In this document: in pieces, positions 45 to 59,966 of the stretch
How positions within the stretch are numbered: the stretch's first letter is position 1
How the letters are laid out: each line of letters opens with the position of its first letter
NCBI RefSeq assembly: GCF_040954645.1
Contig: NC_092808.1
Location: forward strand, 115,980,049-116,044,048
Source of the DNA: Diabrotica undecimpunctata
Lineage: Eukaryota; Arthropoda; Insecta; Coleoptera; Chrysomelidae
Length of the DNA: 64,000 bases
Direction of reading: 5' to 3'
Notes under the pieces: generated by a model
Told to the model about the DNA's origin: nothing
The model's database searches: none
Seen by the model: the letters and a program-made list of their open reading frames with translations, nothing else
Made by a program: the position numbers and the translations under genes

Positions 45-1741
45 ATGGACTATGAGAAGGAACAAAGGAGACTTCAAGACCTCATGGAAGAAGAACCGCT
101 TGATATAGAATATGACGACGGCGATGACGAGAATGAAGTAAAAGTAACTTTGGAAAGCGAACAAGAACAGGATTTAGAGGAAATAGGAGAAGTTTTACTG
201 AATAATGTACAAGAAGAAAGTGTTTTTAGGGGAAAAGATGGTGCAGTGTGGAGAAAGCATCAAAAAAAAAACAAAAGGGTACGTATAAGCAAGCCCAATT
301 TAGTAAAACAATCACCTGGGCCTAATAGATTTACGAAAAAGTTGAAAGACATTTATGAAATATGGAGTTATTTCATTGATGAGGACATGATTTACATAAT
401 TGTAGAATCCACTAATAAATACATTGAAAGTATATTTCTCTAGGGAGAGGGATGCAAAGCTTACAAACCCATCTGAAATTCACGCTCTATAGGCCTTTCA
501 TATTTGGCAGGGACATATAAAGCCCATCACCTGAATACAGAAGATATCTGGCAAACTAATGGCGAAGGTATCGAAATATCTAGACTAGTTATGTCCTTAT
601 CCCGATTTTGGTTTCTTCTAAGATGCGTTAGATTTGATGATCGTGTTTCGTGAAGAACGTAGGAGACTGGATAAGATGACCGCCATCCGAGTATTTTTTG
701 ACAAATTCGTAGAAAAGTGTAATTCGGGATATAACTCTTAGCAAAATTTAACATGCGATGAAATGCTTCCTGGATTTTTAGGGAATTGCCCTTGGATACA
801 ATATATTCCAAGCAAACCCTCAAAGTATGGTCTCAAATTTTTTAGTTTATGTGATGCTGAAATGTATTATACCATAAATATGGAGGTTTATGTGGGTCGT
901 CAACCAGATGGCCCATTTAGTGCAGACAATTTCCTGAAATAAGTTGTAAAAAGAATGTGTGCGCAAATAAAGAATTCTGGGCGCAACATTACTCTAGATA
1001 ATTGGTTCATTAGCATTACTCTAATAGACGTTTTTAAAAGAGAATTTGGATTGACTGTTGTGGGGACCATTAGAAAGAACAAAAGGGAACTGCCCCCTGA
1101 ATTACTTCAAGGATCTCATCCTCTAAAATCAAGTATGTTCGCCTTTAGCGATACATGTTCCTTAGTGTCGTATATCCCCAAAAAGAAGAAAGTTGTATTG
1201 CTTGTTTCAAGTCTACATGATGACGAAGCTATAGATAGAGAAACATTTAAACATTATAAACCAGAAATTCTGACGTTTTATAACAATACAAAAGGCGGGG
1301 TTAACGTCGTTGATCAGCTATGTTCCTCTTATGATGTTTCGCGAAAAACAAGACGTTAAGCCCATGGTAATTTTTAACACCATACTAAATATCGCAGGCA
1401 TTAATTCACTAGTGATTCATGCAAGTAACAACCTTGCTGATAATAAAATGCATAGAAGAAATTTTTTGAAGCATTCAGTATTTTCTGTTATGGATGAACA
1501 TCTACGGGTCCGAGCAATAGTAGACAATTTAAATAGAGATCTGAAGTCACGTATTAAGGCCATATGTAATATTTCTAACACTCCAACGAATGAAGGAGTA
1601 CATGGTAGATGCTACTTTTGCGACCGTAAAAAGAACCGGAAAACGGCTGTTTCCTGCTGTAAATGTAATATGTTTTTATGCAGAGAACAAACACGTGCAG
1701 TATGCGAAGAGTATCAAACTGAACTTATTCGGATTAACTAA
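45..1741 (+). pseudogene. piggyBac-like transposase, decayed (copy A)
   Basis: The acidic N-terminus (ATG at 45) leads through 'PGPNRFTKK' and 'IYEIW' to the DDE domain of cut-and-paste piggyBac transposases. A second block (955-1359) carries 'ITLDNWF', 'GLTVVGTIRKNKRELP' and 'TKGGVNVVDQLCSSYDVSRKTRR', the usual run into the last catalytic Asp. After a frameshift near 1355 the chain resumes as 'PMVIFNTILNIAGINS' and ends in a Cys-rich domain (CYFCDRKK..CCKCNMFLC, about 1605-1690), as expected for the DNA-binding C-terminus. Between 444 and 954 the frame shifts several times with stops, so the gene is dead. A splice-acceptor-like 'tttatttttag' just before the ATG suggests an upstream exon beyond the window edge. 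A poly(A) signal AATAAA lies at 1861-1866. Family call firm; left TIR not in view. Confidence 0.88.
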
Positions 1742-3943
1742 AAGTTTCCTTTTTCTTTATCGGAGTAGAAAATAGTTTTTTTAATGTTCCGTCCAGTGTT
1801 TTTAACATTAGTTAACTTTTTATAATATTTTGTAATATGTTACTCTACTTATTAAACCTTAATAAAATCGTGTTTTACTTAAACTGGTTCCAAATCCTTT
1901 TATTAACACACACTAAGAAGTAAAAGACCAAACGGTCGTTTCGACCGCGCGCGACTACTAATTTTTAAAAATACCTAGCGACTACTGAAGTGTTAAAGTG
2001 ATCAAAAAAACCTAAAAAAATGCAGAGCAAAAAAGGAGGTTTGAAATTTGTTTAAAAAAATGTTTAAATAATTTCTGCTCAATAATTTTGCCAGGCACCC
2101 TATAGATTTGGTTAAAAGGGATAGTTTTGAAAAGGAATCCGTAAAGAAACCGCATCAAAAACATTTTTTCTAAGGGAGCTGCCTCACAACCTGGAGTGAT
2201 TGCATGCTAATATCGGTACAATATGAATTTTCAGACCAATTTTTTGTGTTGAAGTTTATTAAATAAATTTAAAACACGCTGTATGTGCAAAAAATAAAAT
2301 AAATAAGCTAGAAACAGGTTTAGAAACTGAGTAAAGCCACACCCATATAACAACAGACCATACCTCCAATAATTTTAATTGGCTGTTGTGTACATATACA
2401 TACAATTTTTCTTATATTGGAATTCGTAGAATGGTATACACATATTTATTTAGCTGATAAGTTTGTAGACGTGGGTGAGAAAATTTCATTAAGGATATAA
2501 AAATGCGCCTTTAGATACTCACGTAGAATAGGTCGTAAAGCAGGAGTTTATTGCTTACCTGAAACAAAAAAGTTAAATTAAACGGAAAGAAGGCAATAAG
2601 ATTTCTTAACAAATTCAACCTTTCAGTCTGATTACTCCAACATAAAACGACTCTTTTATTTTTAAACGACTTTAGCTGTTTTTAGGATTATTCAACTATA
2701 TAAAAGATTAATTTATTTATATATGCTTTATATATAGGGTGTATGGTTCTGTTATAGATGTAAGACCTTTTATGGTCTTAGACGGAACAGAACTTAATGG
2801 AACAGATAATAAAGGAATTTTCCATGGCATTCGTTGTTACAGGTAAAGTAGGATCGTTTTAGCCTGTCGCATAAGTAATAAAAGTGTCTGTTCAGATTTG
2901 CCTCAGGTAGTCAGCGGTTCTCAAATTAAAAATGTAAGGTTTTCTTAATTTGATAATACGACATTAGGGATTTTTTTAATAAAATAACTTTGTATTATGT
3001 TTTATAATAATTGAATATCATAATGTAAATTGATAAACATTGAGTATGAAATATACAGGGTCATTCACGCAACATGTTGGTTAAAAGTTTTCAAAGTTCT
3101 GGTCGTCACTGGTTTCTGCAAACTTGGAATAATCGGTTATGCAAAGCATTCTTTATTTTTTAAATATTTGCATTCTTCTAGCACTTCCGGTTGTACCGGA
3201 AGTCGCCATTCAGTTTCTTATTTTAAATAGAAACCGTGCTTTTTGTTATTTTTTTAGAATCTACGTAAAATTCTGGATCGATTTTTATTGGGATACCATT
3301 CTTGAAAAAATATCCGTTTTTGAGATATTTAAAGTTTTTGAAAAAATGTTTATATTATACATGCAACTACAAAAATTAATATTGTGGTTAATATTTATGC
3401 TGAAAAAACAAAAATTTTTTTTCAGCGTGTACTAAACTCTATTTTTATTTAAGCTTTCCTCCGCCCCTGGTCTTTGGATCCAGGTCACGACTATTTCTAG
3501 GCAATGGGAGATTTTCGTTTATTTACATTTAAATGGTAGGTTAGCCCATTTGGATTTATCACTACCGGTCAAAGCAATTGTTCGGCGATCTAATGATGAT
3601 TGTGTGTGCCGATACTTGCTTTCCCTTTTCTGCACCAAGTGCAGTCGAGAGCGAGCAAGCATCGAATCCTTTCATCCGTCGTCTAATACCCAGTCATTCG
3701 TCCAGTCATGTCCTTAATCTAACTTACTTGCTAATCTATTTTTTTTTGCTTGCATTACTTTGCTTGCTCCTGCATGCGGTTTTTGTTTTTTTTTGGTGGT
3801 TGGTACCCTTTTGTGTTAATTTTTCTATCTACGTCTTAATCTATGGACAGGTATCATTACTATCTGACTCGCTATCCGATTCATCTGAATCTTCATCATT
3901 ACGAATAATTAAAGGTCTTACTTCATCAATAACTTGTTCTATT
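1742..3943. other. Non-coding, AT-rich; two short hairpins
   Basis: No coding signal. It starts with the 3' flank of piggyBac copy A. A perfect 6-bp stem CGGTCG-TTT-CGACCG at 1933-1947 is typical of the subterminal GC-rich palindromes of piggyBac-like 3' ends. A second hairpin at 3183-3203 (ACTTCCGG-ttgta-CCGGAAGT) lies just after an 'acagggtcattca' motif at about 3055, a word common in dispersed insect repeats. The open frames between 3030 and 3955 look like chance. Confidence 0.5.
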
Positions 3944-4680
3944 TCATATGACTAATTTTTTTTTTTCAGTATGCTCAATACATTTCCGCCATTGTTCCTC
4001 ATTGACTTGGTTTAGTGCATCTTGCCAGAGTTGTAAAACGCTGGCTTCGTCGGTGGTCTTACATGCATGTTTATCATAATAGTTTTTAGTGATGCCCCAC
4101 ACCAATTCAATTGGATTGTACTGGCAGTGATATGGTCGTAGTCTTAGGACCTCATGACCATATTTTAGTGCCATTTGGTCAACGATAAATTTTTTCTCAG
4201 TAATGTGTTCTTTGTACGTATTTAATAATTCAGCTTTTAAAACTAGATGTTCGTGTTCTATATTTTTCTCCGACAGCCACTTTCTTAAGTTTTCTTTTTT
4301 CCAGCTGCTTGTGGGAAACTTTTCCTCCTCTCTGGTGTAATACGAAGCATTGTCTAAGACTATTAATGACGGATTTTCCAGATTTTTTAATAACTTTTCC
4401 TTAAACCAATGTTCAAAAATATCGGCGTCCATATTTCCGTGGTAATCATCAGTTTTTTTTTGTCGAAGAAAATATAAGACTAGCATTGGATATAAAACCT
4501 TCTGTATTTCCTGCATGCAATATAATATATCTTTTGCCATTACTCGCACTAGTACTCGAATAGCATTTGGTAGAATCATCTTGCCAGGATGATTTGAAGT
4601 TATTTCCTTTCGCAAAAATCCATGTTTCGTCAAGAAACACAAATTGTCTGGCAAATTCGGATTTCTTGTTTTTTAAATAG
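3944..4680 (-). pseudogene. IS630/Tc1-type transposase fragment (Sailor-like)
   Basis: Read on the minus strand from about 4680, the chain gives 'NLCFLDETWIFAKG' (first catalytic Asp), 'ASNGKRYIILHAGNTEGF', 'YHGNMDADIFEHWFKE', 'SLIVLDNASYYT' (second Asp) and 'YNPIELVWG' (Glu). I count 81 residues between the second Asp and the Glu, against 34-41 in classical Tc1/mariner. That is one short of the 82 in the related copy at 23900. A frameshift near 4450 separates the first Asp from the rest. The N-terminal helix-turn-helix is missing, since upstream sequence (4680-4750) is not coding. It ends 'EKKKLVI' and stop at 3944. No terminal inverted repeats were found. Confidence 0.82.
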
Positions 4681-5930
4681 TTTCTTATAAATTATCTAAC
4701 AACTGTATTTGACGAATTTGGTGATAACAACATGTAATAAAGAAAATATGCAAAAGATTGAACGTCATTTTTTACCAATAAACATTATATAAACAATATA
4801 AGATCGCTATTTGATTTTAAATACTAAAGGTGAAAATCGCTAAATTATATGCCAAAGAAATTCACCAAATTTTACTAAAACAGCATAGAAAATCCTTTAA
4901 AATGAGGGCATGCAAAGCTATTTTTGTTAGTTTTTTGCTTAATTATTGTAGAAATAACTTTGAAGGTTGATATTGCAAAATTGAAATTATTTATTTCAAA
5001 AAGCTCTTATCTACAACGTTAATATGCGTAAACTATTACCTCTACATAAATAATAAAAGCACCAAATTAAATAAAAAGGCTTACTCTACCAAATTAAATC
5101 ATATAATGATTAAAAAGTTTATGCTTAATATTGTAAGATTTTCAAAAGTACTGTGATTTTAACCTTAAGCTGGGCATTCACGTTGTAGCATTTTTAAATT
5201 CTTTGGTATATATTGAAATCCCCTCGTATAGGTATTAAAACACCGAAGAATATTTTCCATGTATTTCTTTTTCCTATCGTGCAAGTTAAAACACCGAAAT
5301 ATTATTTCAATTCTCTTTGCGTCGACGATTTGATATAAACACATTTTACAGTTTTTTTATATATCACAGACGCATATTCTTTGGTATTTTCTTTGATCGT
5401 TTTTCGCTTAATATTGCGTTTCAAATAGACATCCATTTAGATCGCTGAGAAAGTATTGCGGAAAGAGCAACTCACTCTCACTGAGGTCGCTTGGCGGCTT
5501 GGGCGGCTTGGGCGCCGAGGGCGGTTGGCTTCAGTGTTGATCCAAATTGTACGTCAAATTTGATATGTTTTGTTTTTTTTTGTCCTTTTCCATGAAAAAT
5601 ATGTAGCAGTGTTAAGTTAAATGTGTAGTTACAGTTAGAGGTTGAAAAGATTGGTCATTGAGAGCACACGGCTGCGTGTGTAGTTTGAGTGAACCGGCAA
5701 ATTGGTTGAAAAAGTGAATTATACTTAATGTAACGTGTTAATTTTGAACAAGTAATCACTGTTTTTGTTTTATGTCGTCTCTCATCTAAGAGATTTGTAT
5801 CTAAGAGATTTGTGGCGTTTCCAACAAATTTGAAAAATACTCACATGGTTCCAGTTTTTTAAAGAAGCAGATTTTCGAAGTTTGTGTCCGGTGACAAATT
5901 TTAGCCTAAATTTTCTTTGTCCCTGGTCGT
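4681..5930. other. Non-coding; GC-rich island at 5470-5535
   Basis: No open frame of interest. A local GC-rich stretch around 5480-5530 contains near-tandem 'ggcggcttggg' words and stands out against the AT-rich background. It may be a promoter remnant or part of an unrecognised element. Confidence 0.4.
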
Positions 5931-17171: not shown

Positions 17172-18947
17172 AAAAATAGAGAAATTAGAAACTTATATCA
17201 AGGGGTGCAAAATGAGAAAAAGGGGTACCAAGGAAAACCTGTACACTACAAAAACAAAAATAGAAGAAATTTAGTAAGTGACGAAGAAATATTGAGCAGA
17301 TGGAAAGAATACTTTGAAGAACTTTTATATGAAATTCCCACAACAGAATATGAAGAGGAAGAAGAAGTGAAGGAAAATGTCGATCAAGAACGAATAGAAG
17401 AAAGACCACCTAACGAAAAAGAAATAAAAGAAATAATAGAGAAACGAAAGAATAATAAGAGCCCAGGAAGAGATGAAGTAACAGCTGAAATGTTTAAATA
17501 TGGACGACCAGTACTAATTAAGCATTTGGAAAAGTTGCTAAAAGACATATGGGAACAAGAAAAATTACCGAAGGAATGGACCGAAGGGACACTGTGCACT
17601 TTTCACAAAAAAGGCGACAAAAGTTTATGCCACAATTACAGGGGAATAGCCCTACTAAATGTTGCATATAAAATACTTGCAGTATATATAAAGGATAAAC
17701 TATCTATAATAGTTGGATATAGATATTGACATAGGGGAATATCAATGTGGATTCAGAAGAGGGCGCAGCACAGTGGATCAAATTTTCCTACTGCGCGAAA
17801 TACAAGCAGAAAGCTACGAATATGGGAAACCTACAATGGCCCTATTCATCGACTTTAAACAAGCGTTCGATAGGATAAAGCGCAAAGAAATATACAAAGC
17901 ACTACGTGAAATGGGAATTAGTGAAAAACTGATAAGAATGGTAAAAGTGACACTCCGAAAAACAGAGAATAGGGTTAAAATAAATGGCGAAGAAACAGAT
18001 AAGTTTAAGGTCAGTGAGGGGGTGCGACAAGGAGATCCACTGTCATCGCTGTTGTTCAGTATCGTCCTCGAAGTTACCATCAGAGAAGCTGGAATCAACA
18101 GGTCAGGACTTATATATCAAAGAAAACACCAATGCTTAGCATTCGCTGACGACATTGTACTGAAAGCCAGAAGTAAGCAAGAATTAAAAGAAATAATAAA
18201 AAGATTAGAAATGAAAGCGAGAAAGAAAGGGATGTACATAAATGAAGAAAAGACCAAATATATGGAATGGACAGAAAGAGATTACCTACAAGAACAATAT
18301 CTGACAGTAATAACAGATGAAAAAACATATAAATTCGAAGAAGTAGAAATATTCCAGTATTTAGGAGCGACATTCACGAGAAGACCAAATATAAAGGAAG
18401 AAATCCAAGCGAGAATTATGGCCGGTAACCGTTGTATTTTTGCACTAAACAATTTATTAAGAAGCAAAAACATATCTAGAAGGGCTAAGATAAGAATATA
18501 TAAGACAGTAATAAGACCTATTATATTATATGGACAATGAACAAATACGAGCAAGTCTTGCTGCAAGTCTGGGAAAGAAAAGTCCTCAGGAAGATATTTG
18601 GAGGTAAATTATGGAATGGTATATGGATAAAAAGACCAAATATGGAATTAGAGGGGATGTATGGAGAGCCGAATATCGTAGGAATCATAAAGTCACAAAG
18701 ACTAAGATGGTTGGGACACATCCAAAGGATGGAAAACACGAGACTGCCAAAAAGAATGCCAATGGGAGGAATAGGAGGGAAAAGGAAGAAAGGCAGACCG
18801 AAAACCAGGTGGAAGAAGGATGTTGAAAAAGACATAGAAAAACTTAAAATACCAAACTGGAAAAATAAAGCAACAAACAGAAAAGAATGGAAAAGAATAG
18901 TAACCCAAGCCATGGGCCTTCTAGGCCTGGAGAGCTAAATTATATAT
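17172..18947 (+). mobile_element. 5'-truncated LINE insertion with target duplication
   Basis: The same 12-bp word TACTCGTATGAT flanks it at 17160-17171 and 18947-18958. The coding frame is open from the left boundary: linker ('SDEEILSRWKEYFEELL'), RT start 'KNNKSPGRDEVTAEMFKYG', 'HNYRGIALLNVAYKILA'. A frameshift near 17715 is followed by 'YQCGFRRGRSTVDQIF', 'ALFIDFKQAFDRI', 'GVRQGDPLSSLLF', the catalytic 'LAFADDIVLKA', and 'FQYLGATFTRR'. A second shift with a small deletion at 18537 removes the 'YG.E.W' motif. The rest ends 'LRWLGHIQRMENTRLPKR', 'GRPKTRWKKDVEKDI' and a stop at 18938. The short TTATATA-like tail fits target-primed insertion of an RTE-like LINE. Two frameshifts make it inactive. 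Confidence 0.9.
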
Positions 18948-23660: not shown

Positions 23661-23899
23661 GAAATGAGTGCATTCCACGAAGTAAGGGTTTCAACAATCA
23701 AACATTTAATTCTTTAATTCCAGGAATCTACGACAGTAATTGACTAGATGATTACCTTCTAAACTTATTCCACAGAAAATGTGATAGTGGGTTTTTCCAT
23801 TTTGTAGGAAGGTCCAAGTGGCGTATTCAAAATTCTTAACAGTTCACTAAAAGTAGGTACTTCAGTTGCAAGGTGCAGTTTATTGTGTATACTAGTGTT

Positions 23900-25240
23900 A
23901 TGGAAAATTTGGAAGTGCCGTGTAAACGCCGAAAAATTGGTCCTCTAACAGTTAATGAAAAAACATTAATATTTAATTGTTTTAAATCATTTACAGACAA
24001 ACGTTTATGTGAAAGTGTTGATGAGACCGTTGAGTTAGTTAGCAGTACACTTGGTGTTGGGAAATCTACGATTTACAGAGTTATTAAAGAAGAGAAATGT
24101 GGTAGTTTTCAAATGCCACGTAATGCTCCAGGGAAACCAAAATTTCAAATAGAATATCATTTTAAAGAAGGACTTCGACGGAAAGTGCATGAATTCTTCT
24201 TTAGACAAGAATTTCCAACATTGGATAAAGTTCTTGTCTCAGTTCGAGATGATAAGGATTACCCAGAAATGAGTCGAAGTACGTTATGGAAACTTTTAAA
24301 AGAAATAGGCTTCCGCTGGAAAAAGAATCCCAAAAAGTCTATTTTATTAGAAAGAAGCGATATTGTCATATGGAGAAGACATTTTCTAAGAACCATAAAG
24401 GAAATGAGAAACCAAAAAAGAAAAATATTTTATCTTGATGACACATGGATCAACGAGGGTCATACACCAAATACATTTTGGCAGGATGAAACTGTTACAA
24501 GTCAAAGGCACGCTTTTGTAAATAACTTATCTACTGGTTTAAACCCACCATCAGGAAAGGGACGCAGGCTGATAATAGTACACATTGGCAGTTCAGACGG
24601 TTTTGTTGAAGGTGGTTTATTAACTTTTGAATCAACTCGTACCGGTAACTATCATGAAGACATGAACGCTGATGTCTTTCAAGAATGGTTCAAACAAATG
24701 GTAGATCTTCTTCCTAAGAACTGTGTAATAGTAATGGATAATGCAAGTTATCACTCCAGACTTATAGAAGGACTGCCCACAACCAAGTGGTTAAAAAAAG
24801 ACTTGCAGAATTGGCTGAGTTCAAAAAATATTACGTACCATCCCGGATCTATAAGAAAGTAACTTTATTCGTTGTGTGCCCTTCATAAAGAAAAAATTAA
24901 AAAATACGAAATTGATGAAATTGCCAAAAATCGTGGAATGACAGTACTTAGATCCCCACCATATAATTGTGAATTAAACCCGATTGAACTGGTATGGGCA
25001 CAGATAAAGAGTGAAGTTTCAAGAAAAAATACCACTTTTAAAATTCATGATGTTAAACAGTTGTTTTTGGAGGCCGTAAATAATGTAAAACCTGAAAACT
25101 GGGAAAAGGCAGTAAATCACACTATTAAAGAAGAGGAAAAAATGTGGAAGCTGGACAATATTACTGATAAAATGATCGAGCCAGTTATTATAAATCTTGG
25201 TTCTGAAAGTTCATCTTCTGAATCTGATTTGGATTTGTAA
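23900..25240 (+). pseudogene. DD82E (Sailor-type) transposase, one nonsense codon
   Basis: A single frame runs 447 codons from ATG at 23900 (second in-frame candidate is an upstream GTG) to the stop at 25238, broken only by TAA at 24860-24862. Residues 44-62 (VELVSSTLGVGKSTIYRVI) form a helix-turn-helix. The catalytic residues of the IS630-Tc1-mariner group are Asp180 in 'FYLDDTW' (codon 24437), Asp280 in 'IVMDNASYH' (24737) and Glu363 in 'NPIELVW' (24986). Exactly 82 residues separate the last two. Spacing of 82 is the mark of the Sailor/DD82E group in my memory of the literature, not classical Tc1 or mariner. The C-terminus is acidic and Ser-rich (SESSSSESDLDL). It is related to the fragment at 3944. 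No TIRs were identified. The frame is otherwise free of damage, so decay is recent. Confidence 0.9.
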
Positions 25241-41274: not shown

Positions 41275-42304
41275 TGGCCTACACATTGTAGGAAATGGCA
41301 GATATGCATTTAACTTTGGGTAAGATGGATCATATTAAATTACGATTTTAATAAACTGTCGGGAATATCGTAGGTGAATGTCAAGGAAATAGCGCAGCCG
41401 CTGCAAGGCGTTATGCAGTAAAATACCCCAATCGAAATACATCCCATTGACGATTATTTCTGACCATTGATCGTCGTTTACGGGAAACGGGTACATTCCA
41501 ACCGCAAGTTGCTGGCAATAGTGGTCGTCCAAAAATGGATGCAACTGATGAAGACATTTTGGAAATCATTGAAGAAGTCTTTGGAACAAAGGTACAAGGA
41601 TAATAGCTGCTCAACTAAATGTTCCTCACGTAAGGGTTTGAAGGCGTTTAAAGGATCAGCTGCTTAAACCCTGATCACTTAACAGCGGTTCAAGAGTTGT
41701 TGGTTGAAGATTATCCTAAAAGGGATGGATTTTGCGATTGGTTGTTAATGGAAATTACTCGAAATGTTAATTTTATTAGAAATATTTTGTTTACCTACGA
41801 GGCTACCTTCAGTAGAAATGGAATAACAAACCATCATAACGAGCACATTTGGGCTGACAAAAATCCTCACGCCAAAAAAACGACTCATTACCAAAGGACT
41901 TTCAATGTTAATGTTTGGCAGGAATTGTGGATAACAATCTAATAGGCCCAGTATTTCTTTCCAACAATTTACATGGTCAGTCCTTGGCAAACGATTTACA
42001 AGAGTATTTGAAAGAAGTGTATATTGCAATAAGGCAAAATATGTGGCTTCTACAAGATGGCGCTCCACCTCATTACAGTAATGAAGTCCGGGAATACCTT
42101 TTTAGGCCGTATCCTAATCCGTGGATTAGAAGGGGTCATGACGGACCTATTATTTGGCCACCCAGAAGTCTAGATCTTAACCCCATGAACTTTTGCTTTT
42201 GGGGGTTTATGAAAGAGAAAGTGTATTCTGTAACAATAGAGGACGAACAACAATTGAGGGTTAGAATAATTGAAGCTGCAAATCAATTTCGTCAAAAAAT
42301 ATGA
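41275..42304 (+). pseudogene. mariner-like transposase, inactive
   Basis: The N-terminal part carries 'GECQGNSAAAARRYAVKYPN' and 'RRLRETGTFQPQVAGNSGRP', the HTH region of a mariner-like family common in insects. After frameshifts near 41600 comes 'LTAVQELLVEDYPKRDGFCD', 'LFTYEATFSRNGITNHHNEH', 'HIWADKNPHAKK', 'WLLQDGAPPHYSNEVREYLF' and 'WPPRSLDLNPMNFCFWGFMK', ending at 42304. The first catalytic Asp should lie in 'FTDE' but here it is Tyr (TAC at 41796-41798). A frameshift at about 41930 joins the last two pieces. Dead element. Short inverted words tgatattacaa (41263) and ttgtaatatca (42386) might be terminal repeats. Confidence 0.85.
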
Positions 42305-43431: not shown

Positions 43432-44010
43432 GGCTATGGCTCCACGCGCGACAGATTGTCGCTAGCAGTAGCAGTAAAATTACGGCGGCAGTAAAGCAGT
43501 AAAATCATGGCTCCACGAGCGACAGTTTACAGCGCGCATATCGCAGCGTTTTGGTCTTGTAGTGGCTCCATGAGCGTTAATATGACGCAGCTACAATCAG
43601 TGGTATCTTGTCCGTTTATATAAGTGTTCGTGTATATCGCAGATAAAATAAATAAATAAATAAGTGAAATAAATTCAGATCGATAATACAATAATATAGT
43701 ATGGATAATCTATCATTTCAACAAAAAGTTGATTTAATATTGGCATTGCGCCGTGGACGTAGGGTTAAAAAACAACGGAAATGGTGGATTCACTCTGTTC
43801 TAGTGCCTAGACAGACAGAGGGAAAATTTTTTCTTTTACACAACAAATTAAAAGAATATTCTGACAAGCTTTTTAAATATTACAGAATGTCAGTGTCTTC
43901 TTTTAATTTTTTATTATGTGAAATAGAAGATGTCATACGAAAACAGGATACATCAATGCGTGATAGCCTAAGCCCAGAAGAAAAATTAGAAATTACCTTA
44001 AAGTAAGATT
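43432..44010 (+). mobile_element. PIF/Harbinger element, 5' end
   Basis: It starts after TTA with GGCTATGGCTCCACGCGCG, a TIR-like end. The core TGGCTCCACGMGCGACAG recurs at 43437, 43508 and (shorter, TGGCTCCATGAGCG) 43563, giving three subterminal copies before the first exon. No matching right end was seen, so the element is truncated after its first exon. Confidence 0.7.
43701..44002 (+). CDS. HARBI1-like transposase, first exon
   Basis: ATG at 43701 opens 101 codons: 'MDNLSFQQKVDLILALRRGR', 'WWIHSVLVPRQTEGKFFLLH', 'DKLFKYYRMSVSSFNFLLCE', 'DTSMRDSLSPEEKLEITLK'. This is the N-terminal region of PIF/Harbinger nuclease-type transposases, ahead of the FLATG block. The frame ends at a donor-like TTAAA|GTAAGA (exon end 44002), so the coding chain was meant to splice onward. 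No later exon with the DDE residues is visible downstream before the next element. Undamaged as far as it goes. The upstream region with three GC-rich repeats probably holds the promoter. Confidence 0.75.
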
Positions 44011-44809
44011 TCAAATTACATATTTTATAATTATATACATGTATCTACCTAAAAAATAAAAAAAAATAAAATATTTAACTATTTAACTTTCATTAGAATA
44101 AAAAGGGGCCGCCACCACTTCTTACCTCTGCGTATTTTGTAATTCGCTACTGAATTATCAAGTAGATCGACGGCTCCCATATGTCAATTATATTCATTTA
44201 TTATATTGGGTTGATGTAATGAATCTTCCTTTTCCAATATCCAACTTGCTTTTTTATGTTACAATAATAAAAAAAATTATGATGAGACATAAAATCTGAT
44301 TTGTTGCATTCCTTTATTTATAAATCACGCCAAGCTATCGAAAACGAAACATTAGTACTGAAGGATAATAAAATTTTACTATAAACAATAATTATTAAAA
44401 TTTTATTTATATGATATGATTAGAAAACCACTTATATAGAAATGAATCACCAGTTCGAAAAAGGAAATCCAAAAAATAGATTTTCGGGAAATAAATAAAA
44501 ACTGTTTATTCTCTCTATTCAACTTTTTCTTGTTTAATAATGGTATCTATTATAAAGTACAGTTTGATACGGTTAATTGGGATTGAAAAAAAACCATCCA
44601 TTGATTTTTGTTATCTAGAATACCGATAAAGAAAATATTGGATTTATTTCTTTCTTAGAACTTATAATTTTTTGTTATGATTTGAGACAAAAAATTGTAT
44701 GAAAAAACTTTAAAGTAATTTATAAAAACACAGAAACAACTTAACAAACACAGAGAAATAAAAAAAAACAAGAACAAAAATATCCGATTAAATGGCAATT
44801 ACCGCTACA
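44011..44809. other. Non-coding stretch
   Basis: AT-rich. A GC-richer island at about 44106-44180 ('aaggggccgccaccacttct') may be residual Harbinger sequence. It ends at the TACA target duplication of the next element (44806-44809). Confidence 0.4.
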
Positions 44810-46575
44810 CTGCCGTGTTAACTCAAAAGGGCGTAACTGCAATTTTTATTAAAAACGAGTTTCATATCCCACGAGTTATTTAGTAATCTTTTCTACAAAT
44901 CTACCTGGATTTCATAGCCGTATCTGCAATAAAACCGGATATATACTGCTTAAATTAATAGCCGTAAATGTTAACACAAAAAGCCGTAACTAAAAAGTTT
45001 TCGGCAGATACGGCCTATTCACTTAAGATTTCAAGATATTATTATGTTGGCGCGAAAAGTAGTAAACTGTCAATTTACTTTATTTCTATCTAACCGTACT
45101 TTTTCGTGTTTTCATAGAATGTGTTTAGTTTGTTGTTCATAATAAATATGGATAATAATTTTGCAGAAACAACTAGTAAGTATATTTTCTACTAATTTAT
45201 ATAAAAGGCTAAATAAATACAAATTGTTACCTTGTACCTATGTGCCAAGGTAAATATTTTTGTTTCTGAAGTTATTGTAAATGGCTCTTTTTGTAGGTGA
45301 TTATGCTCCCAAGATGCGATACTTTCAAAGAAATTATATTTACTTCTAGACTGATAGCCTTTAATGAGAGCTTTGTTCCAGTTGGTACTTCTAAAACTTC
45401 TACAGTTGCTGTTCTATGGCATGAAGCTATTTCTGGGCGAAAAAAGGCTAATATTGTTAGCACATTTTATGCATTTTTAAACAAAATTAGGGATTCCGAA
45501 GAAGTTTTTGTTTGGGTGGATAATTGTTTCGGTCAGAACAAAAATTGGTGCTTGTACACATTTTTTGTGTATGCTGTAAACTCGTTAGAATTGAACATTA
45601 TGAAAATAACTCTAAGATATTTTGAGTCAGGCCATACATTTATGGCAGCTGACTCATTTCACCATAGAGTCGAGCAATCACTAAATCCACAAGGTAAAGT
45701 TTATGACTTCGTTGATTTTGTAAATGCGGTTAAAACGTCAACACGTAATGTCGAAGGTATCGACGTGGCTTTTAATGATTTTTACAACTGGAAAGATGAA
45801 TCATCTCAATATAAAATAACAAGGTTGGTCCCTCGTCCGTACCTTCAACAAATGGTGGTTCAACAAAAAAGTTTAGTTCATGAGAGGTTTCCATACATTA
45901 GGTTATAAAACTAGTTTTGAAGGATAAATCATAAGTGCCAATTCTTTAAAGGCTAATATCCGAAAAATTGGCATTGCAAAACCCCTCTCTATCTCTCAAC
46001 CACGAGATATTATCATGGAAAGAACACAGAATATTATCACTGAAATTGGTCAAATAATGCCCCCAAATCGCATTACATTTTGGAAAAATATTTTTGTCAG
46101 CGAAAATGTGGACACAATAATTGATAATTAATATAATAACTAGTTCGGAGCAGAAAATTAAGTATTAATTATTTATATTTGATTGACTGAGTATGATATT
46201 TTAGTTAGTCTGTATTGTTGTTTACTTTTTTAACTTTTCCTAATTATTAAGAATAACTTACGAAATTAATACAACATTAATATTGTAACGTTCATTTGTT
46301 TAATGCAATAAATATTTTTAAAAAATCATGTAGTTACGTTCTTAATTGTATACCTCCTGTTAAGTGAAAAAGGCGTATCTGTCAAAAGTGTTATTTTCCC
46401 AAGTTGATACTCTACAAAAATCTGTTACATGATAGTATAAACCTATTTGTTAACTTCTATATGGTACAAGTCACAACTTTTTAAAAAATCACGATTGCCT
46501 CATCAAAACCACTAAAACTGATTTTTCTCGCAAACTAGTTTAAAGCAGATACGCCCTTTTGAGTTAACACGGCAG
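44810..46575 (+). mobile_element. 1.77-kb TIR transposon carrying a DUF7869-like domain
   Basis: Perfect 26-bp terminal inverted repeats at 44810-44835 and 46550-46575 (beginning CTGCCGTGTTAACTCAAAAG), extended imperfectly for five more bases. They are flanked by TACA on both sides (44806-44809 and 46576-46579). Inside, the word GSCGTAWCTGC or close variants recurs near both ends: 44831, 44917, 44961, 44983, reversed at 45004, then 46372 and reversed at 46545. Such subterminal repeats are usual transposase-binding arrays. The only coding content is the C-terminal half of a DUF7869-like protein (45297-46131) and a possible short first exon (ATG 45148, donor at 45175). Superfamily not recognised. 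Confidence 0.92.
45297..46131 (+). pseudogene. DUF7869-like protein, C-terminal part
   Basis: The exon begins after an acceptor 'ctttttgtag' (45287-45296) with 'VIMLPRCDTFKEIIFTSRLI', then 'AFNESFVPVG', 'VLWHEAISGRKKANIVSTFY', 'EEVFVWVDNCFGQNKNWCLY', 'FESGHTFMAADSFHHRVEQS' and 'DFVDFVNAVKTSTRN'. These blocks belong to a large insect and cnidarian family of unknown function that I recall as DUF7869. The acidic residues in 'WVDN' and 'AADSFH' look like an RNase H-type active site. The block with the preceding Asp should lie in a missing upstream exon. A frameshift near 45900 and a stop separate the last part ('NSLKANIRKIGIAKPLS', 'PPNRITFWKNIF'), which ends at 46129-46131. Family fairly certain, function unknown. 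Confidence 0.75.
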
Positions 46576-46579
46576 TACA

Positions 46580-49489: not shown

Positions 49490-52190
49490 CAACACTCCTG
49501 TTATATTTGTAAAAAGATTGACCGTATCGCCCCAAACTGTCCTCAAAATACAATAACTCCAGTTCAATAGTAAATACCACAGGGACTCAGCAGACATTAT
49601 AACCGACGTAACACAAAACTCAGTAGAAATCCATTCAGAACCAAATTATTTGGTACAAGACACTCAATCTAAACAATACAAACATAAAGATGTAGGTGTA
49701 AATAAACCAAGGCGAAAAACCGATAACCCGCTTACAAATAAAGGTATAAACGTTAATGAAATAGGATTAGAAACTAATGAATCATTGATCACTTCATAGA
49801 ACCTACTGACAGAACCTACACTGCAAACACAGAGCAAAAGAGCTTTTTCCGAAACAGTTACACCACCTGAAACCCCTGAATGCTTTATACGGCCTGCTAA
49901 GGATACACGTTCAAAAAAGAAGAGAACTATCCCAACAATAGATTCTATTGATATACAGAAATTGATGCAGCCAACAAAAGTATTTTTTGACGACGACATA
50001 AACGAAAGTGTTTTTAATTACTAAGAAAAGATACACTTTTTTAAAAACGCGTATGGTTCACCCGACCCATTAAGTGTTGCTCAAACGTTTACAAAAGATA
50101 TTGAGGGATTACTAGAATTATTAGACAACATCGACCCAATGTTTAATGAAAACACGTTGTACAAAGATTATGCGCAAAATATCCAAATTGCTGGATACAA
50201 ATTCCTCCTCTATCTTAGACAGTGATCAAGTACAAGAATAAAAATTAACATATAAAACAAAAATGTCAATTCTTCAGTGGAACATATACGGTTATTATAC
50301 ACAACGAGAAATGTTTAAATTATTAATTACTAAACACTCACCTTTAATAATATGTCTCCAAGAAACGAATTTTACTGACCAAAAATTAGCAAAATTAAAG
50401 GCATTTACAGGTTATCATAAAAAAGACGTGATTTAAAAAAAGCCAGTGGAGGGATTTCTATTTATGTTAATAACTTATTGGAATCTAGACAAATAACTTT
50501 AAAGACCAACCTTGAAGCAATAGCAGTTACCATAAAAACTCCAAAAATTATTAACATCTGTAATATTTATTTTCCTCCGAATACTGATATAAGTATAAAA
50601 GAGATAACTCATATTATAGAACAAATTTCATCGCCTAAGATTATAATAGGAGATCTAAATAGATACGATCCACTTTGGGAATCTAATAGATATAACAAAA
50701 TAGGACACATAAGAGAAACAGTCATTAATAACACCAATATTACCCTACTTAACGATGGATCTCCAACAAGATTTAATTCTTTTACTGGAAACACTAGTTG
50801 TATTGATTTATCTCTTGTAGTTATCCCTTCTTTAGTACAAAGCATAACTTGGGAAGCTAGTACACAATTGTATGGAAGCGATCATTTTCCCATAGTGATA
50901 CATTTCGAAAACAAATAAGAAATTCAACCATACACTGGATGGAATACAGAAATAGAGTATTGACCACCGTTTACACAGTTTGTGGAGAATCAATTGAATT
51001 ATTTTTCAGATCTATCCCCGCATGACAATATAAACGACTTAGTAAATAAATTTTCCTCCGTCATACTTTCCGCAACAGATCATATCATTGGAAAAAAGAA
51101 AATAGTAAGAAATCGTATTGGATTACCATGGTGGAACAATCATTGTCAGGATGCTATAAAGAAAACTCACAGAACATTCAATAAATAAAAAAAATACAAA
51201 AAACATAAGAAAATCTTCTTGAATATAAGAAGTTAATTAAGGGCTATTAGTAGAATGGTGGTAAAAGAAGCAAAAAAGGAATCGTGGAAAAAATCAACAA
51301 TAAACAGTTCTACCCCAGCAGCAATAGTGTGGAAACAAATTAACAAAATTTCGGGACGCCACACAAACTCATCAATAAGATTTTTAGAATATAATAATAA
51401 AATTCATACATCTAGATCTGGAATAGCCAATGTATTAGCTTCATCCTACGAGTCATATTCAAGTAACGATAATGTTTCTCAAGAGTTTTTACAATTTAAA
51501 ACCAAAGAAGAATTACAAGAATTTAATTATGATAAAAGCAATAACCTACCAATAAATGCACCAATACTAGAGCAAGAGTTAACTAAATCTATAAATTCTA
51601 ATAAAAATTCTAGTCCCGGTCCAGATGATATTCATATTATTATTTTCCTTAAAAATTTGCCTAAAAATGGATTTGCGTATTTACTAAAGATATATAACAA
51701 AATATGGCTTGAAGGAGTATTTCCACATACTTGGAATAATGTTTACACAATACCTATCCTTAAACCTGTTAAACCACGTTCAGATCCAAACGCCTATCGT
51801 CCAGTATCGTTAGGACATGCAATGAGCAAAATGCTCGAAAACTTAATTTACCAACGTCTCATTTGGATACTCGAGCAAAAATCTGTTTCATCTAAAAAAC
51901 AAAGTGGATTTCGTAGAGATAGATCAACTCTTGACAACTCAGTTGACCTGGAGTCTGAAATACATGAAGCGCTAGCAAATAATCAAAGCTGTATAGCGGT
52001 ATTTTTTGATATAACCAGAGCATTTGATACAGTTCGGCGCCATGGAATAATTATAACTTTACAGAAATCAGGTATACAAGAAAATATGCTAAAATTTTTA
52101 ACTTGTGTTTTGTACAAACCACTCAAACGATTTTTATACAATCAGTGGAAGGTAGTTCTCTTAGTTGTATTTTAGCTTTCTACAACACAC
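49490..52190 (+). pseudogene. Jockey-type LINE, 3'-truncated
   Basis: ORF1 end: a degenerate zinc knuckle '[14 protein letters not shown]' in which Arg sits at the His position (49515-49560), then a gag tail with 'SKKKRTIPTIDSIDIQKLMQ' to about 50225. ORF2: ATG at 50263, 'MSILQWNIYGYYTQREMFKL', 'LIICLQETNFTD', a shift near 50433, 'ICNIYFPPNTDISIKEITHI', 'IIIGDLNRYDPLWES' and 'YGSDHFPIVI' (endonuclease, to 50918). RT: 'NKNSSPGPDDIHIIIFLKNL', 'IPILKPVKPRSDPNAYRPVS', 'KKQSGFRRDRSTLDNSVDLE' and 'IAVFFDITRAFDTVRRHGII' (motif A). It ends at about 52175 before the YADD motif. Loss of the 3' half is unusual for a LINE and implies later deletion. The break lies about 320 bp before the foldback element. 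Confidence 0.88.
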
Positions 52191-56114: not shown

Positions 56115-57205
56115 TTTTCCTAAGAATACTTTACAATAGAATTAGACGCAAATGCGAAGAAGATCTAGAAGATACCCAATTTGGTTTTAGAAGTGCTATG
56201 GGAATCAGCGATGCACTTTTTGCGCTTAACATCCCATTACAAAAATGCCGCGACCAAAGAAAATATGTATTGTAAATATGCATGTTTCGTGGACTTCGAA
56301 AAGGCATTCGATAAAGTACAGCATGTAAAATTAATACAAATGCTAAAGAATATCGAAATAGATGACAAGGATATTCGTGTCATTAAAAATTTGTACTGGA
56401 ATCAAACTGCTATCGTAAAAATTGGAGATAACTACACCGATGAAATCTCCATACAACGAGGAGTCAGACAAGGTTGCATTTTGTCGCCAACATTGTTCAA
56501 TATTCTGCTTAATCGTATTCACGAGGTAGGAGAGAAAATGGGCATAAAAGTAAACTCAAACAAAACCAAATTTTTAGTGTTTAGTCGTGACCCACGTTTC
56601 GATGCAAAGCTTCAATTAAACGGAGTCCAAGTTAAGAAGGTCCACAAAATGACATATTTGAGAACTGTGATAACGGACCAACTAGATCCAGACATAGAAA
56701 TAAAACGTACAATAGCAATGACTAAAACTACTTCTATGAAAATGAAGTCATTGCTTTGCAATAATCATCTCAGTTTAGAACTAAGACAAAGAATGGTTAA
56801 GTGTTATGTTTGGTACATACTTTTGTATATTGCAGAAGTGTGGACGCTAAAAGTATCGATCATGAACAAAATTGAATCATTGGAAATCTGGGTTCATAGA
56901 CGAATGCGGAAGATACCTTGGATAGCAAGGAAAACTAAAGAAGAAGTACTAAGTACTAAGAACTGCTAAAAACCGTTAAACATCGAAAGATGTCTTATCT
57001 GGGACATATAGTAAGAGGAAGTCGATATAAAATATTACAACTGATCCCTAAAGGTAAAATAGAGGGCCGTAGAGGTGTAGGAAGAAAACAAGTTTCATGG
57101 TTAAAAAACATTTGTGAACGGACACAGATAACAAATGCAGGAGAATTATTCCATATTGTAGAAGATCGAGAACCCTTCGCAATGGTGATCGCTAACGTCG
57201 GATAA
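56115..57205 (+). pseudogene. LINE RT fragment lacking YADD
   Basis: 'RRKCEEDLEDTQFGFRSAMG' (56140-56200, broken) leads into an open frame 56250-56969: 'CFVDFEKAFDKVQHVKLIQM' (motif A), 'ISIQRGVRQGCILSPTLFNI' (motif B), then straight to 'LLNRIHEVGEKMGIKVNSNK'. About 50 residues between motif B and this block, including the catalytic (Y/F)ADD, are missing without loss of frame. It continues 'KMTYLRTVITDQLDPDIEIK', 'IESLEIWVHRRMRKIPWIAR', a stop, 'SYLGHIVRGSRYKILQLIPK', 'GRKQVSWLKNICERTQ' and a GAAGAAGAAGAAG tail at 57220-57232. Same LINE family as 33385. Confidence 0.88.
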
Positions 57206-58770: not shown

Positions 58771-59966
58771 AGTCAGAGACAAGGGACTAAAAAAGCTGAG
58801 ATCTATATTACAAGAGAACTCCTATCCTATAGGGCTGTTAAATAAACTCATTTTCGGTTCTCCTTTTCCTTCGCATTTTTCTGACAACCAAAATTTTCAT
58901 AACAATGAGGTCCGACAACTGACATTGACACAGAACACATCACTGATACCATCTAAAATAACTTATGGTTGCCTACCCTACATTCCAGTTTTGTCACCGA
59001 AGCTAATGAACATCTTCAAAAATGTTAGTGATTTAAAAATTACAACCAAAAATGGGAAAACGGTATCAAAGTTATACACAAAAATAAAAGATCCTTTCAC
59101 AATACAGGAGTCATCGAATGTTGTTTATTCTATACCGTGTAATAATTGTAACAAAATATATATAGGAGAATCATCTCGTAATTTTCACAGTAGGGTGATC
59201 TCACATCGTAGCGATATAAAAACCAAAAAAATAAATGCATGTGCATTGACAGAACATGCATTAACGTTGAAACATGAATTTAATTTCGAGAATTCCTATA
59301 TTTTGGCAAAAGAAAAGAACCATTCAAAACGTGTTTTCTTGGAAATGTGTTCCATAAAATCTAGTACATCTTGCATCAATAAAAAGTCAGACATAGATAA
59401 ACTGAGCAACATTTATTGTTACTTACTGGAAAAATATCCAAAATAAAATTAATATCTACCTGTACCCACACAAATTACACTTATATGCATAACATGTTGC
59501 ATACCATTAAGACAGGTTTAAAAATTAAAATCACCTAAGATGGGCCTCTAGTATTTCTTAAAAAGAAACATAATATTAAGTACACTTAATTACTTTTTAA
59601 TCATAGGATTTTTTCTTTTTGTTCTCTATGTGTCAGAGTTAAAACACACCAGTAAAAGATGACAAACTAAATTTTTACTATCTGTACCTTAATTTTAAAG
59701 AATTTTAAAATGTATTTTGTCCACTATTTTATATTTTATATGTGTGTTAATAATGTTGAGTGTCTATGCTTTTATAAATAATCTCAACGACTAGTAAGTT
59801 GCACTGAAGATTTGTGATATTTTACAAATATTTACATTTTTTTTTCTTATTACAGTGTCTTGAAAAAGGAATCAAACCATTCCGAAAGCTAGACAAAAAG
59901 TCATAAGACTGTTTCATTAACATCCCGACCAATTTTCTGACTGCAACCCTAATAAACTGTGTTGTT

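Follow-up and report, generated by a model that had tools for sequence, protein, structure and literature searches.

A probable Sola-type DNA transposon encoding a DUF7869 protein in Diabrotica undecimpunctata

Within a 64,000-nt stretch of Diabrotica undecimpunctata contig NC_092808.1 (the window, meaning the whole stretch that was analyzed), a 1766-bp unit at positions 44810-46575 is an internally deleted, non-autonomous derivative of a DNA transposon whose full-length copies encode a protein with the Pfam domain DUF7869 (PF25273). Considered jointly, the evidence makes it probable that the family is a recently active cut-and-paste transposon, most likely belonging to the Sola superfamily, and that the window copy was mobilized in trans. 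An original prediction, made from the window alone, had described a DUF7869 gene boxed by terminal inverted repeats (TIRs) and a 4-bp target-site duplication (TSD). That this is a DNA transposon with DUF7869 as its own gene was supported: perfect 4-bp duplications recur in 18 of 21 two-ended copies, empty sites were recovered for all three insertions searched, and a segment of the gene is present in 20 of the 21 copies.

Ends, copies and empty sites

Re-reading of the sequence, a scan of the window and shuffled controls bore out the perfect inverted repeats and the TACA duplication around the unit. The two TIRs, 26 bp each with no mismatch between them, lengthen to a 32-nt match at 97% when a single outer base is counted together with some of the inner ones. 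Allowing up to 3 mismatches, the 26-mer was found at two sites across the window, both of them the TIRs, and at none in 100 shuffles. The ends of the full element read CTGCC...GGCAG. Its boundary is placed at the C, excluding the A/T pair outside it, because other copies with other TSDs fix it there; a 27-bp TIR beginning with A and accompanied by a 2-bp TSD was ruled out by copies with TSDs such as TATA, TACT and AATT. The features of the window copy are as follows.

44806..44809, no strand: left TSD, TACA (sequence reading; empty site with a single TACA)
44810..44835, plus strand: left TIR, 26 bp, CTGCCGTGTTAACTCAAAAGGGCGTA (inverted-repeat comparison, window scan, other copies)
44830..45014: left terminal and subterminal cluster of the motif GSCGTAWCT, 1 mismatch allowed, starts at 44830, 44917, 44961 and 44983 (plus strand) and 45006 (minus strand); candidate transposase-binding sites
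45148..45175, plus strand: first-exon remnant (ATG...ACTA) followed by a GTAAGT donor (comparison with full-length copy L026; putative splicing)
45282..45286, plus strand: internal-deletion junction, where roughly 1.45 kb found in full-length copies is gone, including the entire large middle exon and the first putative catalytic Asp
45297..45908, plus strand: last-exon remnant, a 203-amino-acid open reading frame (ORF) with the C-terminal part of the DUF7869 core; frame lost ahead of the normal end of the 274-amino-acid exon
45519..45521, plus strand: codon of the second putative catalytic Asp (VDNC.GQNKNW), Asp in 52/52 alignment rows
45651..45653, plus strand: codon of the third putative catalytic Asp (GHTFMAADSFHH), Asp in 52/52 alignment rows
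45928..46131, plus strand: out-of-frame last-exon tail, a 67-amino-acid ORF resembling the end of the 274-amino-acid exon in L026
46372..46380, plus strand: right subterminal copy of GSCGTAWCT (motif scan)
46550..46575, minus strand: right TIR, 26 bp (inverted-repeat comparison, window scan, other copies)
46576..46579, no strand: right TSD, TACA (sequence reading)

Excluding the TIRs, five GSCGTAWCT sites lie within the element (four on the left and the one at 46372), compared to a mean of 0.54 and a maximum of 4 in shuffled sequences (n = 300). Judged from sequence, these repeats are candidate binding sites of the transposase.

A search of the 1.74 Gb genome using an 80-nt query from the left end returned at least 40 matches. 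The 26-mer with at most 1 mismatch occurs at 74 places genome-wide (38 and 36 on the two strands; 0 for the reversed control), forming 30 pairs that span 1721-6397 bp and 14 single ends. From the 40 end matches, one of which is the window's own end, 20 loci (L009-L028) were fetched and 16 proved two-ended; L014, L016, L022 and L028 showed one end within the fetched stretch and were left out of the TSD count. Together with the window, 15 of these 17 two-ended copies carry a perfect 4-bp TSD, and both exceptions (L018 and L027) have changed ends. Four further copies added three perfect TSDs and one unreadable flank. The duplications vary from copy to copy (TACA, TATA, TACT, AATT, ATTT, TATT, TAAT, AGTA, AGCA, CATT and TAGT), placing the end of the element at the C and indicating a 4-bp duplication and AT-rich targets.

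For the insertions in the window, L017 and L024, we joined both flanks with a single copy of the 4-mer and searched the genome for the join. All 40 listed places for L017 match positions 1-115 of 116 with the insert absent. The window join is matched over its junction (after base 34) at 45 of 45 bases in 39 places, the fortieth row being its own right flank, and the L024 junction (after base 60) is spanned in 42 of 43 rows. These matches are empty sites inside other repeats. Several of those for L017 and L024 occur as opposite-orientation pairs about 0.1-3 kb apart, and suggest that both copies inserted into the termini of other elements bearing long inverted repeats.

One long locus deserves separate mention. 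L013, at 6.4 kb, was considered as an autonomous copy and dropped, as it is actually a deleted copy carrying a nested insert. The element (813-4904, near 89.16 Mb) is a short copy whose insert has open ORFs of 266 and 989 amino acids and looks by eye like a long interspersed nuclear element (LINE; endonuclease-reverse transcriptase). The insert is flanked by a 504-bp direct duplication of the host element, 99.8% identical, which is either far beyond the usual LINE target duplications or else a tandem duplication.

The full-length element and its gene

The largest ORF of the window unit (45297-45908) scores 32 bits against the DUF7869 model, above the cut-off of 26. The boxed gene of the original prediction thus stands as far as its domain is concerned, but the ORF is the last exon alone, frame-broken relative to intact copies, and not a whole gene. 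The original prediction had asked whether copies of about 3-5 kb carry complete genes, and full-length copies were found at 3.1-3.3 kb (L026 and L033, 3256 bp; L034 and L035, 3121 bp) with open exons and a putative spliced form. They hold the approximately 1.45 kb absent from the window copy. In L026 this extra segment comprises an open exon ending ...YTADLQK, followed by a GT-AG intron and a 274-amino-acid exon that begins VIMLLRCDTF and bears the DUF7869 motifs. Both large exons are open in all four copies, with frames of 466-474 and 274 amino acids. When exon 1 (ATG...ACTA with a GTAAGT donor), which is short and was placed in L026 alone, is added, the predicted splicing yields a reading of 707 amino acids with no base changed; L033-L035 were checked for the two large exons. 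Homologs P0001, P0007 and P0111 continue as ADLQKVIMLP across the L026 exon joint. DUF7869 is the sole domain above cut-off in a Pfam scan of the 707-amino-acid protein.

Pairwise divergence is 1.3-4.5% among 13 short copies and 0.1-0.7% among the four full-length copies (at least 99.3% identical), which points to very recent movement of the latter. One more copy, L027, is full length and frame-broken and lies about 4% from the four intact ones. Tolerating as many as 3 differences, the deletion junction of the window copy was recovered from 16 of the 25 loci read, and the window copy is therefore part of a deletion series, which appears to have spread after the deletion arose.

DUF7869 as a probable transposase core

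The original prediction had read an RNase H-like domain from the acidic motifs and the TIR setting. This is supported by modeled structures, in which DUF7869 adopts an RNase H-like fold as in retroviral integrase and the mariner transposase Mos1, and by a conserved Asp-Asp-Asp (DDD) triad. The models are of P0003, a Photinus protein with 51% identity across the region searched, and of P0151, and stand in for the window ORF and the L026 protein. The alignments comprise 52 of 120 listed homologs (A1), 8 chosen sequences (A2) and 17 chosen sequences (A3); the second and third Asp are present in 52 of 52 rows. The predicted core resembles Mos1 and retroviral integrases, with the acidic residues along the same order of secondary-structure elements. 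A sequence search of solved structures gave no match, within the transposase families represented in the lists searched; Foldseek against the PDB gave no match with E ≤ 0.001. Together with the TIRs and 4-bp TSDs of the related families described below, the models and the conserved residues make it very likely that DUF7869 forms a transposase's catalytic core. The Pfam entry PF25273 assigns the domain no function; the window ORF, the L026 protein and seven further proteins tested all score above its gathering cut-off.

Among the matches listed, the nearest protein relatives are hypothetical proteins of Ignelater luminosus, P0001 (71% identity) and P0002 (70%), over 76% of the searched region. 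Both additionally carry PF21787 in a precomputed table, and P0001 is labelled P-element transposase by one source. One protein search returned 445 DUF7869 proteins from insects, fish and Hydra, the named ones mostly hypothetical or uncharacterized; overall, relatives were seen in insects, Hydra, fish and starfish. Phage sequences gave no tblastn match to the window ORF, and none of 12 pattern matches in viral contigs was confirmed as a relative.

We propose the following course of transposition, its chemical steps modeled on DDE/D transposases as described in excerpts of PMC8230255 and PMC8151067. The element would encode one protein, in L026 of 707 amino acids from three exons, with conserved Cys/His pairs at its N-terminus and the RNase H-like DUF7869 catalytic core. 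This protein may bind the TIRs and subterminal repeats and pair both ends. Excision would use two metal ions held by Asp-Asp-Asp, and the element would be joined to target strands 4 nt apart, at AT-rich sites opened by staggered cuts. Unable to make the whole enzyme, the window copy would be moved in trans by the protein of its full-length relatives.

Related families in the same genome

A first look at the genome gave 8786 DUF7869 candidates; all 150 places scored were over the Pfam cut-off, and none was found in 14 control genomes. We read five loci (L037-L041) from families that share 37-42% identity with the L026 piece. L039 has a 26-bp TIR beginning CTGCCGCGC and the TSD TACT. L040 and L041 represent a single insertion in two copies; their TIRs start with CTGCCC and their TSD is TATA. 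A more distant sister clade has GAA... ends and 4-bp TSDs, read by eye: AATT at L042 and L047, ATAT at L044 and L046, and ATTT at L045, four of the five being palindromes. Because these 4-mers vary beside an identical end (L044, L047), they are target DNA, not part of the element. The terminal sequences are CTGCCGTG... in the window clade versus GAATCAC... or GAAGGGG... in the GAA clade, and the proteins of the two clades align by profile comparison with an hhalign probability of 99.8% (E 2e-29) and the three Asp in register. Targets of the form AWWT were used at all five two-ended GAA loci (L042, L044, L045, L046 and L047) versus 3 of 18 copies in the window's clade. DUF7869 genes that consistently lack TIRs would have spoken against the transposon reading, which this check did not overturn: TIRs were found at L039, at L040/L041 and at five sister-clade loci, but no clear TIR pair was seen at L037, and one end was present at L038 (99% identical to L039, right end missing) and at L043 of the GAA clade. 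DUF7869 open frames of the same length (619, 578 and 539 amino acids; 619 in L046 and 578 in L047) recur at several places each, and several DUF7869 families, apparently young, are present in the genome.

Taken on its own, the window copy, with a partial gene between TIRs, would look the same if an unrelated transposon had picked up part of a DUF7869 gene of the host (Pack-type capture). This reading is highly improbable and was rejected on the full-length copies and the ends of related families. Both large exons occupy the same position in the full-length copies, DUF7869 families 37-42% identical share CTGCC ends, genes of this kind are bounded by different TIRs in the sister clade, and an integrase fold is predicted for the core. 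Repeats found elsewhere without the gene would also speak against a transposon, but the DUF7869 exon is kept at least partly in 20 of 21 two-ended copies (mostly deleted in L036), and this objection therefore does not overturn the transposon reading.

Classification

The comparison in the original prediction covered piggyBac, Harbinger, hAT, Tc1/mariner and CACTA, leaving out Sola. Our data agree with the absence of a match to the first four, given 4-bp TSDs other than TTAA and no DDE_Tnp_1_7 domain in the L026 protein. TSDs are 8 bp in hAT and 3 bp in Harbinger elements, unlike the 4 bp here. Likewise, Tc1/mariner elements produce TA and P elements 7-8 bp duplications (PMC5199201, in excerpt). 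Other superfamilies that share the 4-bp TSD, namely Ginger, piggyBac or Kolobok, are very unlikely hosts for this element, even though piggyBac also uses a DDD triad (excerpt of PMC8151067). TTAA, the target of piggyBac and Kolobok, was seen in 0 of 18 copies with a perfect TSD, and Kolobok ends are of the form RR...YY in the excerpted Repbase superfamily list that we used for comparison (PMC9587614), versus CTGCC...GGCAG here. Neither the Gypsy-type integrase domain (rve) of Ginger nor the DDE_Tnp_1_7 domain of piggyBac was detected by Pfam in the L026 protein, though DDE_Tnp_1_7 was detected elsewhere in the window.

The claim of a new superfamily was not supported, as published Sola is consistent with the 4-bp TSD, the DDD triad and the occurrence of subgroups that differ in their ends, one of which targets AWWT. 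Bao et al. 2009 reportedly defined Sola with three groups (Sola1, Sola2 and Sola3) that differ in ends and targets. An excerpted description gives Sola elements a DDD transposase, TSDs of 4 bp, TIRs between 11 and 1124 bp long and sizes of mostly 2-9 kb (PMC10741241). Here, the 4-bp TSD is supported by copies and empty sites, the triad by conservation and predicted fold, the 26-bp TIR and the full-length sizes fall within the ranges, and the hosts are likewise animals. The TSDs of Sola2 elements are AT-rich, and one set of Sola2 families uses AWWT (PMC3627910, in excerpt); this resembles the GAA sister clade, whereas the window's CTGCC clade differs in that its AT-rich 4-mers are mostly not AWWT. 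We therefore consider membership in Sola likely, the likeness being drawn from published feature descriptions rather than protein sequence. The literature search yielded no Sola ends or protein letters, and the matches listed in the protein searches, most of them without organism name, included no named dictyostelid protein.

Alternatively, DUF7869 elements could form a large DDD, 4-bp-TSD superfamily of the same mode of working, with at least two branches (CTGCC; GAA with AWWT), separate from Repbase Sola, undescribed as such and filed under "uncharacterised" animal genes. Our literature search gave no paper naming DUF7869 or PF25273, Pfam still lists the domain as unknown, and the Sola identity draws on features instead of sequence comparison. 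Against this, the general Sola features are all present, the sister clade has Sola2-type AWWT TSDs, and a family of this size, spread over several animal groups, would in our judgement hardly have escaped Repbase. We regard a separate superfamily as unlikely and favor placement in Sola.

The value of these observations thus lies in the link between DUF7869 and a transposase and in a very young complete family, not in a new superfamily. The link offers a likely function for a Pfam domain of unknown function across hundreds of predicted proteins. DUF7869 genes would be transposase genes rather than host genes, and annotations, orthology sets and expression studies counting them would therefore be affected. 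The near identity of four full-length copies whose exons are open indicates very recent activity of the family, and an active transposon with a DUF7869-type core would, in our judgement, provide a test object for a superfamily that is known chiefly through its sequences. With one domain family, two end types and two target preferences in one genome, end recognition and target choice become directly comparable.

Surroundings of the element

Mobile elements are abundant in the window. Adjoining the element, a 103-amino-acid ORF (43695-44006) gives the impression of the N-terminus of a PIF/Harbinger-type transposase, with no Pfam match above cut-off. A weak GIY-YIG nuclease match at 58772-59446 (20.8 bits against a cut-off of 22.6) is possibly the end of a Penelope-like element. 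A piggyBac-type transposase fragment lies at 943-1359 (PF13843, 73.5 bits), with an adjoining ORF to 1741 in another frame. DDE_3-type transposase fragments are found at 3944-4672, 23840-24862 and 41912-42304, the second alone above the Pfam cut-off, and LINE-like endonuclease/reverse transcriptase remnants (PF00078, PF14529) at 17713-18540, 50421-52175 and 56169-56969.
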